Shown: positions 14,784-34,014 of the stretch, piece after piece | How the letters are laid out: each line of letters opens with the position of its first letter | Numbering within the stretch: position 1 is the stretch's first letter | Source: Methanotrichaceae archaeon | GTDB lineage: Archaea > Halobacteriota > Methanosarcinia > Methanotrichales > Methanotrichaceae | Assembly: GCA_016927425.1 (NCBI GenBank) | Contig: JAFGMR010000057.1 | Location: 1-37,273, forward strand | Direction of reading: 5' to 3' | Length of the DNA: 37,273 nt | The notes under the pieces: generated by a model | Told to the model about the DNA's origin: nothing | Databases searched by the model: none | Seen by the model: the letters and a program-made list of their open reading frames with translations, nothing else | Translations under genes and position numbers: made by a program

Positions 14784-14927
14784 AGACCCGCCCCTTCTTT
14801 TATAATTCCAGCTCTCCAGGGCCTTCATCCTTAGATGTTATCATTTATCGTGGCCTGGTGGCACCCCCCCGCGATCGCAGCTTGGTTTCCCTTGCCTGAA
14901 GCCCAAACCCCTTTAAATTCATTAGAT

Positions 14928-15241
14928 GGCGGGCACGCCGACGGTTGCCATCAACGCTACAGCCCAGTTGATCCAACAGCCTTCTCATCCCCGCCTTCCT
15001 GTAAGCGACAGTTACCCACAGTAGGTCTGCTCCCTTCCGGGCCTGAACCGGTCCCTGCGGTTAAGGCACGCCGACCTGCCCTCCGGCAGGCCCGCGGGCC
15101 AATGATGGCCCTACAGGACGGAGAATCATTGTCAGCAGCTGGACTGAGCATTGCAGCGCATGTGTCGCCCGTCAGCTTCGTCCCCCGCGTATCGACGATT
15201 TCAGGTTATAGGTGACGCCGAACCACCCGGACTGACCCGCC
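14928..15241 (-). ncRNA. ffs: archaeal signal recognition particle (7S) RNA
   Basis: The minus strand carries the helix 8 signature CAGGCCCGGAAGGGAGCAG at about 15047-15027, the universally conserved SRP54-binding hairpin. About 314 bases separate the closing helix 1 strands GGCGGG (15241-15236) and CCCGCC (14933-14928). The segment near the 5' end, GGTTCGGCGTCACC, is typical of the archaeal Alu domain. The length matches archaeal SRP RNA. With SRP19 and SRP54 (not in the window) it targets secretory ribosomes to the membrane. A TATA-like GGTTTATTG lies about 27 bases upstream. Confidence 0.9.
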
Positions 15242-15298
15242 GACACCTATTAACCCCCAGAGGGCAATAAACCTAACGCAAAGGAGAGGAGGATTGGA

Positions 15299-29621: not shown

Positions 29622-29768
29622 CTATCCTCTGCTCTCCTTGGACTTCATCCTCAGCCCCTCGTAGCCGCACTTGCGACAGCGAGTGGACTTAACTGGGTTG
29701 CGTGCATTGCATCGCATACAGATCTTCATGTTTAATATGCGATTTTCAGCCTCGGGAAACCTGGCCAT
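29622..29768 (-). CDS. rpl40e: large-subunit ribosomal protein L40e
   Basis: 48 residues, [35 protein letters not shown], then KSKESRG. The two CxxC pairs bind zinc, and the length and sequence are typical of archaeal L40e (eL40). It is encoded on the minus strand. GGAGAGGAAA lies a few bases before ATG 29768. It lies between the tRNA-Ser gene and GGGP synthase on the same strand. Confidence 0.95.
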
Positions 29769-29861
29769 AATATTTTCCTCTCCTAACCCCCGCCCTCGAG
29801 ATTGCCGGAATCCTTTGATATCGGCTTGCCGGCAGCGGAGGTGATGGCGCCGGGGTTGGGA

Positions 29862-29893
29862 TTTTCATGGAGGAACTATGGCGTTGCCCCCAA
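29862..29893 (-). other. tRNA-Ser intron 2, T-loop (position 59/60)
   Basis: 32 nt. UUCA (29899-29896) pairs with UGAA (29867-29864), giving a 4-bp central helix. 3-base bulges AAU flank it on each strand, with T-stem UUGGG/CCCAA outside and UGGGGG/CCUCCA (29892-29887 with 29873-29868) inside. This is a complete bulge-helix-bulge. Cutting after the second bulge base yields TTCAAA+T, the expected T-loop. Confidence 0.85.
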
Positions 29894-29943
29894 TTTGAAC
29901 CCAAGCGTCCCAGAAGGGACAACAGGTCTCGAGCCTGCCGCGT

Positions 29944-29976
29944 ATGAACTCTCAATCGCCCGCTGGCGAGGAAGAA
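29944..29976 (-). other. tRNA-Ser intron 1, D-loop
   Basis: 33 nt by the best fold. GGAC (29982-29979) pairs with GUUC (29949-29946) between bulges AAU and AUA. The inner stem is UCUU/GAGA plus UCGCC/GGCGA with an AGCG loop. The outer exon helix is missing, so the bulge-helix-bulge is of the relaxed type and boundaries are less certain than for intron 2. Confidence 0.65.
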
Positions 29977-30019
29977 TTGTCCGCTCTGCCACCCCGGCCC
30001 GAGGTTCCCTCATGCATCA

Positions 30020-30032
30020 CCTGATTTAAAAC
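30020..30032. promoter_or_regulatory. TATA region between tRNA-Ser and malic enzyme
   Basis: TGATTTAAAACTG reads as TTTTAAATC about 28 bases ahead of tRNA-Ser G1 on the minus strand. Rightward, the same element or GGTTTATC at 30049 could serve malic enzyme. Confidence 0.45.
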
Positions 30033-31380: not shown

Positions 31381-34014
31381 TCACCCGGCCGCTGCTGCCA
31401 GCCCCGCGCCTGCCCCGGCCATAATTCTCTGCATCTCCTCGTCGACGATGGCCCCCTCCAGATTGGCCTGGGCCATCGACTCGAGCGTCCCTCGATCGAA
31501 AGTGATGTTCATCAGGTTCGAGTAGCTCAAATCCACGTTCTTGCCGGTAAATGAGGTGAAGCTCGATCCATTCAAGTCGCTGCCGGAGAGGTTTACGTTC
31601 TCTGAGTATACATTGCTGAACTCCGCATTGCAGAAATCGGCTCCCTTGAGGTCCACATCCTTCATATTTATATGGGTCACCTTCGATCCGCTGATGTTGG
31701 CATTTCGCATATTCGCGCCGATAATGTTGATCCAGCTGAACTCCGAGTCCGCAAAGTTTGCATAAGAGAGGTTGGCACCGTTTAAGATGGAGTTGTCCAG
31801 ATTGCAATCCCTGAAGTCGCTGAAGGATAGGTTGGCATTGGTCAGATCGGAGTAGGAGAAGTCGGCCCCCCTTAGATCGCTGCCCGATAGGTTGCATCGG
31901 ACCATATAGGCCCTGCTGAAGTCCGATCCGCTCAGGTCGGATACGCTCAGGTCAGCAAGCATGAACTCGGCCCTTGCGAAATGGCCGTTTTTAAGGATGC
32001 TTCTTCGAAGATCGGCCCAGCTGGCCCTTGCGCCTATCATATTTGCCCCCGCCTGATCAGTCCCCCTCATCGCGGCCTGGAGCAGGCTCGTCGCAACGAG
32101 CCTGGCGCCGGCCATGCAGGCTCCTGTGAGGTTTGCCGAGTCCAAACGGGCATCGGAGAGGTCCGAGCGACGGAGGTCTGCACCGCTCATATCGGCTCCG
32201 GGAAGATAAGCGCTGTTTAAAGAAGACTCCACAAGGGTGGCTCCAGCAAGCCTTGCACCGGCCAAGCGAGTTCCGGTGAGAACAGCACCTGAGAGGTTGG
32301 CTCCTCGAAGGTCGCAATCCTCGAGCCCCGATGCGATAACAACGGATCCCGATAGATCGGCCTCGCTCAGGTTTGCCCTTGTGAGGTTGGTAAAAACAAG
32401 CCTTGCTCCGACAAGAAGGGATTGGCTGAGGTCGGCCCCTGATATGCGAGCCTCGGAGAGATCAGCGCCCGTGAGGTTCGCCCCTCTAATCTTGCAGCCG
32501 ATCAGGTTTGCACCGACGAAGTCAGCACCGCTCAGGTTCGCACCCGTCAGGTTGGCACCATAGAGCATGGCCCTCCTGATGAAGACTCCGGATAGATCCA
32601 CGCCCGCGAGATCTGCCCCGTTGAGATCGGCTGCCATGAGGTTTGCTCGATAGAGCCTTGATCCCCTCAGCATTGCCCCGGCAAGTAGCGCAAGCTCCAA
32701 CCTCGATCCGGAGAGGTCGGCCTCGGTGAGGTTGCTGCATGTGAGGTTGGCCCTATTGAGGTTGGATTCGACCATCGATGCTCCGGATAGGTTGGAGCAG
32801 CTGAGATTTGCCTCCTTCAACGTGGCTCCGGAGAGATCGGCAAAGGCGAGGTTGGACCTATCGATCATGGCATTTTCGAGGGAGGCCCCTCGTAAGGAAG
32901 AATGGCTAAGATCAGATCCCTGCAGGTTGCACTGGTTTAAACTTGAACCGTTCAGGTTGAGGTAGCTCAGATTCATATGGCAAAGATCGCAGCGATCGCT
33001 TAAGGGATGGTTGAAGATGATGCTTCCCGGTGGAAGGGCCGACGGCAAGATCCCCCACCGATTGAGCTCCAGCATATCGAACATATAGTAGTTGGGGCTC
33101 TCCTTCACAACAGGAATATCAGAAGGACTCTTCCCCGCGAGGATCTGCAGGGCTATATCGGCAGCCAGGTGTGCCTGGGCATTGTAGCAGGAGAGCTTTC
33201 CCCCCACAATGCCATGGCCAAGGACGAAGTCCCCTATTCCGTAGATGGGAACTGAGCTTGCCGACCTGACAAACTCTGCGCTCTCCTCGTACGTGAAGAT
33301 ATGGCCCTCTCGATCTCGTGTGAACGTCATCAGGAGGACCAGATATTCTTCCGTTAGGCCTCTGAGCGTCCGTTGCAGCTCCCGGGAGGTCAGGTTGTCT
33401 ATCAACTGAACGTCTGCTCTTTGGCTGGAGTTTGCAGCCACCCGTTCGATCAACCTCCGATTGGAAAGACCAGTTGCCGTCTGGTCGTTCACTACCAGGA
33501 TATGCCGGGCTTGGGGGTGTAGCTCAAGCATGATGTCCATCGTGGCCTCGACATCCATATCCTGAACGACTCCTGTGAAGCTCGCCTTTCCCTCCAGAAG
33601 ATCGTCGCTGTAGTAGTTGGCGCCACAGAAGACCACAGGAGATCCAGGAAATATCTCGTCCCTGTTCTCCAAGAGGAACCGGAAGGCATCGTCGTCGGAT
33701 GCGATGATCACATCGAAGCTCTTATTCCTATACTCGTCCCGGTAGAGGTCTCGAAGCTGGGCAAGGCGGGTTTGATTGGGATCCTGCCTATCTGCGTCCA
33801 TGTACTCGACGGTAAGGGATGCGGATGGCATCCTCATCAAGAGGGCCTTTCGAACCCCCGTTGTGATGGCATCACCCCAGGCCATGCCAGGATGGTAGGA
33901 GTTCAGCAGCAGGACCTCTGGGGCCTCTTCCCCTAGGGAGGATGCCGCGCCGGATATGGATGAGAGCGTCAGCGTTATGATGATGATGAAGCGGATCCCG
34001 CGAGATCGGAGCAT
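31381..34014 (-). CDS. exported ABC-substrate-binding-like receptor fused to a giant pentapeptide-repeat helix
   Basis: 877 residues. A signal peptide (IIIITLTLSSISGAASS) precedes a two-lobed domain (about 33-330) with VLLLNSYHPGMAWGD, FDVIIASDDDAFRFLLENRD, FPGSPVVFCGANYY and HILVVNDQTATG, as in the ABC_sub_bind sensor family often fused to histidine kinases. From about 343 to 860 it is pentapeptide repeats (A/S/N-x-L-x-x; for example NLSGADL, ANLTGAN), about 100 units, which would form a right-handed quadrilateral beta-helix of some 25 coils. The end is Ala/Gly-rich. There is no kinase or anchor. An envelope ligand sensor is possible; the partner is unknown. The receptor-plus-helix fusion is not one I know. 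Confidence 0.85.
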   Translation of the reverse strand: MLRSRGIRFIIIITLTLSSISGAASSLGEEAPEVLLLNSYHPGMAWGDAITTGVRKALLMRMPSASLTVEYMDADRQDPNQTRLAQLRDLYRDEYRNKSFDVIIASDDDAFRFLLENRDEIFPGSPVVFCGANYYSDDLLEGKASFTGVVQDMDVEATMDIMLELHPQARHILVVNDQTATGLSNRRLIERVAANSSQRADVQLIDNLTSRELQRTLRGLTEEYLVLLMTFTRDREGHIFTYEESAEFVRSASSVPIYGIGDFVLGHGIVGGKLSCYNAQAHLAADIALQILAGKSPSDIPVVKESPNYYMFDMLELNRWGILPSALPPGSIIFNHPLSDRCDLCHMNLSYLNLNGSSLNQCNLQGSDLSHSSLRGASLENAMIDRSNLAFADLSGATLKEANLSCSNLSGASMVESNLNRANLTCSNLTEADLSGSRLELALLAGAMLRGSRLYRANLMAADLNGADLAGVDLSGVFIRRAMLYGANLTGANLSGADFVGANLIGCKIRGANLTGADLSEARISGADLSQSLLVGARLVFTNLTRANLSEADLSGSVVIASGLEDCDLRGANLSGAVLTGTRLAGARLAGATLVESSLNSAYLPGADMSGADLRRSDLSDARLDSANLTGACMAGARLVATSLLQAAMRGTDQAGANMIGARASWADLRRSILKNGHFARAEFMLADLSVSDLSGSDFSRAYMVRCNLSGSDLRGADFSYSDLTNANLSFSDFRDCNLDNSILNGANLSYANFADSEFSWINIIGANMRNANISGSKVTHINMKDVDLKGADFCNAEFSNVYSENVNLSGSDLNGSSFTSFTGKNVDLSYSNLMNITFDRGTLESMAQANLEGAIVDEEMQRIMAGAGAGLAAAAG

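Follow-up and report, generated by a model that had tools for sequence, protein, structure and literature searches.

The tRNA-Ser(CGA) locus

The window (the whole 37,273-nucleotide stretch of a Methanotrichaceae archaeon contig analysed here) carries at 29998..29845, on the minus strand, a locus whose best reading from the sequence, and a supported one, is a tRNA-Ser(CGA) gene with two non-canonical bulge-helix-bulge (BHB) introns. Its parts and immediate neighbours are:

30024..30031, minus strand: TATA-box-like element TTTTAAAT, 26-33 nt upstream of the tRNA
29977..29998, minus strand: exon 1, acceptor 5' strand and 5' part of the D-arm, GCCGGGGTGGCAGAGCGGACAA
29944..29976, minus strand: D-arm intron, 33 nt, position 21/22 (numbering of this analysis), placed by BHB core and intronless orthologues
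29894..29943, minus strand: exon 2, D-stem 3' strand, anticodon arm (CGA), variable arm, T-stem 5' strand and UUCAAA
29862..29893, minus strand: T-loop intron, 32 nt, position 59/60, an hBHBh' motif
29845..29861, minus strand: exon 3, U60, T-stem 3' strand, acceptor 3' strand, G73 and encoded CCA
29622..29768, minus strand: rpl40e (ribosomal protein L40e, Pfam PF01020), 79 nt after G73

Removal of both introns (33 + 32 nt) leaves 89 nt, which form a complete class II tRNA and receive the ARAGORN call tRNA-Ser(cga). An earlier note on this DNA had described a class II frame with encoded CCA on the minus strand, and re-reading of all the arms confirms it: the acceptor arm is GCCGGGG/CCCCGGC, plus G73 and CCA, the anticodon arm GCAGG-CUCGAGA-CCUGU with anticodon CGA, the variable arm GUCCC-UUCU-GGGAC and the T-stem UUGGG/CCCAA. 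The 86-nt spliced product given there is the mature length without CCA (89 nt with it). The extra bases it placed in the D-loop and T-loop are equally real. ARAGORN recognises a canonical tRNA after both removals; the program makes no call on the unspliced precursor or on either form with a single intron removed. That tRNA finders might miss the locus also proved correct: ARAGORN, run both with its intron search and without it, calls no tRNA anywhere in the window, nor does Rfam at the gathering threshold, where the sole report is an archaeal SRP RNA (14927-15242, minus strand, 204 bits). Folding of the full-length precursor is 3.5 SD better than that of shuffled sequences.

The surroundings of the gene are conserved as well. 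CAACAG(A/T)TATAAA stands at about the same place in the family relatives, in most of them as CAACAGATATAAA, and rpl40e lies about 35-98 nt downstream in nearly all family loci with a long enough stretch. It is followed by a PcrB/GGGP-synthase-family gene and then by two M24 peptidases, while a divergent malic enzyme gene lies upstream of the tRNA. A scan for contigs with the neighbouring peptidase returned distant loci only. Window positions 31381-34014 (minus strand) encode an 877-aa protein whose N-terminal part resembles an ABC-type substrate-binding domain and is followed by a very long pentapeptide repeat run (A(N/D)LSGA-like).

The source assembly (2.32 Mb, 94 contigs) is rated 99% complete and contains 40 other tRNA matches, the serine anticodons GCT, TGA and GGA among them. 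An intact second tRNA-Ser(CGA), the finding that the earlier note had named as speaking against its reading, was found in this genome neither by tRNA listing nor by a BLAST-type search with the spliced gene, which returned this locus only. We put the probability at roughly 0.93 that this is a functional, single-copy tRNA-Ser(CGA) gene whose precursor would carry two BHB introns, in the D-arm and T-loop, removed by the splicing endonuclease EndA.

Intron motifs and cut sites

One splice rule was applied to both introns, a cut after the second base of each 3-nt bulge. The T-loop intron has the core UUCA:UGAA, the bulges AAU/AAU, an inner helix UGGGGG:CCUCCA (6 bp) and, as its exonic helix, the T-stem UUGGG/CCCAA (5 bp). 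It is a strict hBHBh' motif, defined as exonic and intronic helices, each of at least 2 pairs, closing the 3-nt bulges; in this genome there are 5 bp outside and 6 bp inside. Cutting by the rule yields the normal T-loop UUCAAAU, and both the UUCA/UGAA core with AAU bulges and the restored TTCAAAT stand exactly as the earlier note had them. Only 10 of 300,000 shuffles of the T insert matched its core and inner helix quality in the exact register.

For the D-arm intron the core is GGAC:GUUC, the 5' bulge AAU, the 3' bulge AUA and the inner helix UCUU:GAGA (4 bp); 224 of 300,000 shuffles reached the same quality in register. This motif is not strict hBHBh', as no exonic helix directly closes its 3-nt 3' bulge, beside which stand either C16-G24 and G15-C25 with a 4-nt bulge, or the D-stem interrupted by an internal loop. 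Cutting at AA^U and AU^A gives the spliced D-arm GCAG-AGCGGACAA^ACGC-G.

Orthologues lacking this intron in other families of the class provide an independent view of the spliced product. In families f6 and f7 the intronless genes have the D-arm GGACUA^ACGCGG, that is GGACTAACGCGGCAGG (also GGACTAACGCGG), which is the exact predicted spliced form of those C23 genes that have a UAA 5' bulge; the AAU bulge of the present genome leads to GGACAAACGCGG, one base off GGACTAACGCGGCAGG. In family f2 the intronless D-arm GGACTAATGCGG is the exact predicted spliced form of f5, of the U23 type, which is carried by f5 and genus g38. These matches support the cut sites, and the boundary of this intron, previously left unsure, is placed at 21/22 by the BHB rule with the support of the intronless orthologues. 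The A-C mismatch reported in the D-stem is real: A12.C23 is native to tRNA-Ser(CGA), since the intronless f6 and f7 genes have it too, and it alternates with A-U in f2, f5 and genus g38. C-to-U editing at C23 was rejected as a necessity on the same ground, that intronless genes carry A12.C23.

The alternative that survives best, though improbable, keeps the gene and both introns and moves the D-arm cut by 1-2 bases (e.g. to 22/23 or 23/24), giving A12-U23 in some species. Bases are repeated at the ends of the intron, so that one-base-shifted cuts could yield the same or a similar product, the BHB rule being what selects the given cut, and A12-U23 is indeed found in f2. However, the BHB rule reproduces both the intronless C23 form of f6/f7 and the U23 type of f5/g38, and genus g6 has the bulge AAG, with which a cut at 23/24 would restore no pair.

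Distribution and selection among relatives

The comparison covered a family of 50 genomes (taken as Methanotrichaceae) within a class of 238 (taken as Methanosarcinia). The D-arm intron is present in 44 of the 50, 43 found by pattern and one, G010, by reading its sequence, its intron being longer than the pattern allowed; the remaining six gave no match with either search pattern. The T-loop intron is present in all 33 family genomes whose gene was read through the T-arm. Elsewhere in the class, the D-arm intron occurs in families f3 (nine genera), f4 and f5, and altogether it is conserved in more than 100 genomes. The search of related genomes for an intron-free tRNA-Ser(CGA) that had been proposed earlier does find D-arm-intronless orthologues, in f6 and f7; the D-arm of f2 is likewise uninterrupted, its insert lying instead at the canonical anticodon site. 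The genes read from f2-f7 showed no intron in the T-loop; in one copy (L101), close to the end of a contig, the T-arm is scrambled. Among 296 phylum genomes at least 90% complete, the sole D-arm intron outside the class is L201 (G238:C12:6086-6136), of 17 nt at the same site, with core GGAC:GUCC, bulges UAA/CAA, inner helix UCG:CGA and a GUAA loop. Judged by these counts, neither intron is a one-off, the D-arm intron being widespread in the class and the T-loop intron family-wide.

Two further kinds of copy were met with in these searches. L077 and L078, of family f2, are tRNA-Ser(CGA) genes without the D-arm intron whose insert follows the anticodon loop (~37/38), which means that the site of interruption in this tRNA differs between families. 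L095 (G033:C36) is a decayed second tRNA-Ser(CGA) near a contig end; the 5' part of its D-arm is missing and its anticodon loop (CUCUAGA) and T-loop are altered, with the T-loop intron retained. Insertion of a mobile element was rejected as the origin of the inserts, which are about 30 nt long and at the same place across genera, as was a single-genome assembly error, the same structure being found in dozens of genomes.

The exons are near-invariant over at least 10 genera (in exon 1 the first 20 of 22 nt, through GGAC, are identical across most relatives), whereas the inserts diverge yet keep their helices. All 44 distinct D-inserts have four standard core pairs, and over the core and six inner pairs 86% of cells pair, versus 30-49% in registers slid by 1-3. 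Column shuffles average 78% with a maximum of 81%, and 0 of 500 reach 86%. For 29 distinct T-inserts the corresponding figures are 86% versus 39-60% in slid registers, with shuffles averaging 80% (maximum 83%; 0 of 500 at 86%). Each set has six pairs with changes on both sides. Since the shuffles leave relatedness in place, the slid registers make the fairer comparison. The fourth pair of the T-intron core is A.G in 20 of the 29 T-inserts, and A-U in the source genome.

These patterns bear on whether the gene is alive. It might be a pseudogene, disrupted by two insertions and fallen into disuse, with UCG read by tRNA-Ser(UGA); standard finders do miss the locus, and a tRNA-Ser(UGA) that might read UCG by wobble is present. 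We regard this as very unlikely, given exons held near-invariant while diverging inserts keep their helices, a conserved promoter and synteny, and the contrasting appearance of a real pseudogene in a relative, namely L095. Still less credible is a tRNA that works unspliced, or with one insert removed only, with an enlarged D- or T-loop. Nothing favours it directly, its one oblique point being that the D-arm motif is not strict hBHBh', and against it the intronless orthologues have the exact spliced form, the T-loop insert stands between the invariant UUC and the 3' strand of the T-stem, and the cores and inner helices co-vary.

EndA and comparison with known systems

A single EndA is encoded in the source genome; it is 352 aa long and contains two N domains and two of catalytic type. 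Its best match is the A. fulgidus alpha'2 EndA, and its residues align with the FRVY...HSEYLV...VRK motifs. The crenarchaeal specificity loop (CSL) is absent from it and from 18 other aligned EndA of the class (19 of 19 short; FYGKPVGGRLQLS in the source genome versus a 23-letter stretch in A. pernix), the comparison being of the CSL. A crenarchaeal-type broad system, (alpha beta)2 with CSL or epsilon2 with ASL, was looked for and a single two-domain protein found instead. The EndA tree is poorly resolved.

Transcription, cleavage and ligation might then run as follows. The gene would be transcribed, probably from its own TATA promoter and possibly together with rpl40e, and the precursor would fold into two BHB motifs, in the D-arm and the T-loop. 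The two-domain alpha'2-type EndA would cut each bulge according to the splice rule above, and the exons would then be joined by a ligase (RtcB, presumably) into the 89-nt tRNA reading UCG. As to order, our guess is that the T-loop intron goes first, since it is a strict, self-contained motif whose removal restores the T-arm.

What sits least easily with splicing by this enzyme is the non-strict D-arm intron, the A.G in most T-cores of the family and the narrow alpha2-type EndA of the reviews, points that would have to be set against our preferred explanation. Only (alpha beta)2 and epsilon2 EndA are described as efficiently removing relaxed introns, the alpha2 type being narrow (PMC6379350); the alpha2 EndA of H. 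volcanii requires hBHBh' (PMC7714728); and in euryarchaea with alpha4/alpha2 EndA each interrupted gene is said to carry a single canonical intron (PMC4090602). A. fulgidus EndA, on the other hand, removes a BHL intron at 37/38 from full-length pre-tRNA (PMC6379350), which makes tolerance plausible when the tRNA body is present.

Two other tRNA genes were noted. In the same genome, tRNA-Arg(CCU) (G000:C74:10205-10301, minus strand; L044, L166) has a 62-nt D-loop insert that appears to be two introns at one site, removed successively, first with the core CUAG:CUAG and then with CUAG:CUGG; both steps yield GCCU-AGCCAGGACA-UGGC, the second step in this genome having been read by eye and having failed the filter of the script used. 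Among relatives (L167-L171) the same two-step pattern occurs in genus g6, G007 has a single 40-nt intron, and in a Methanosarcina-type genome the gene has no intron. G055, taken as a Methanosarcina-type genome since it carries tRNA-Pyl, has an unrelated-looking intronless tRNA-Ser(CGA) (L146) with a Ser(GGA)-like D-arm, suggesting that the intron-bearing gene was replaced there.

The D-arm intron may go back to an early stage of the class and have been lost exactly in f2, f6 and f7, or it may have been gained repeatedly at one site. We lean, by a modest degree, towards a broader interpretation in which loop-less alpha'2-type EndA routinely splices non-strict D-arm introns in the class, even two successive ones at one site as in tRNA-Arg(CCU), so that the link between broad splicing and loop-bearing EndA would fail; the D-arm intron would be old, with precise losses in some families, and Methanosarcina would have escaped it by replacing the gene. 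The range from intron-bearing through exactly intronless to replaced genes would make a natural series for the study of tRNA intron gain and loss. On the practical side, a tRNA gene can be overlooked when the tRNAs of these methanogens are simply counted.

Non-canonical introns in methanogens are known from Methanopyrus kandleri, Methanothermobacter and "three thermophilic euryarchaeal methanogens", reports from which Methanotrichaceae and Methanosarcinaceae are absent (PMC4033280, PMC3218864). Those intron-bearing methanogens are thermophiles, and M. kandleri EndA is (alpha beta)2. The third, unnamed thermophile of the three may be Methanothrix thermoacetophila. Korarchaeum cryptofilum, with a homodimeric alpha2 EndA and non-canonical introns, has been called the sole such archaeon (PMC4033280); the specific loop, said to be shared by the Korarchaeal EndA, is lacking in the class EndA examined here. 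In reviews, tRNA introns that are non-canonical or multiple are linked with EndA of the (alpha beta)2 or loop-bearing kind (PMC4090602, PMC4033280, PMC6379350), and a D-arm intron in more than 100 genomes with loop-less alpha'2-type EndA would be a clear counter-example.

The closest parallel is with the Thermoproteales and other Crenarchaeota, whose non-canonical introns have the same BHB at the D- and T-arm, position 59/60 being listed there (PMC4090602), and where, as here, several introns occur per gene and plain tRNA finders miss them. Unlike in that group, the host here is euryarchaeal and its EndA is a two-domain alpha'2-type without the crenarchaeal loop, not (alpha beta)2; and unlike crenarchaeal introns recently spread by transposition, the D-arm intron is conserved through much of a class. 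By its sequence features the intron is of a known kind, and it is the euryarchaeal lineage, the enzyme type and the conservation that are unexpected.
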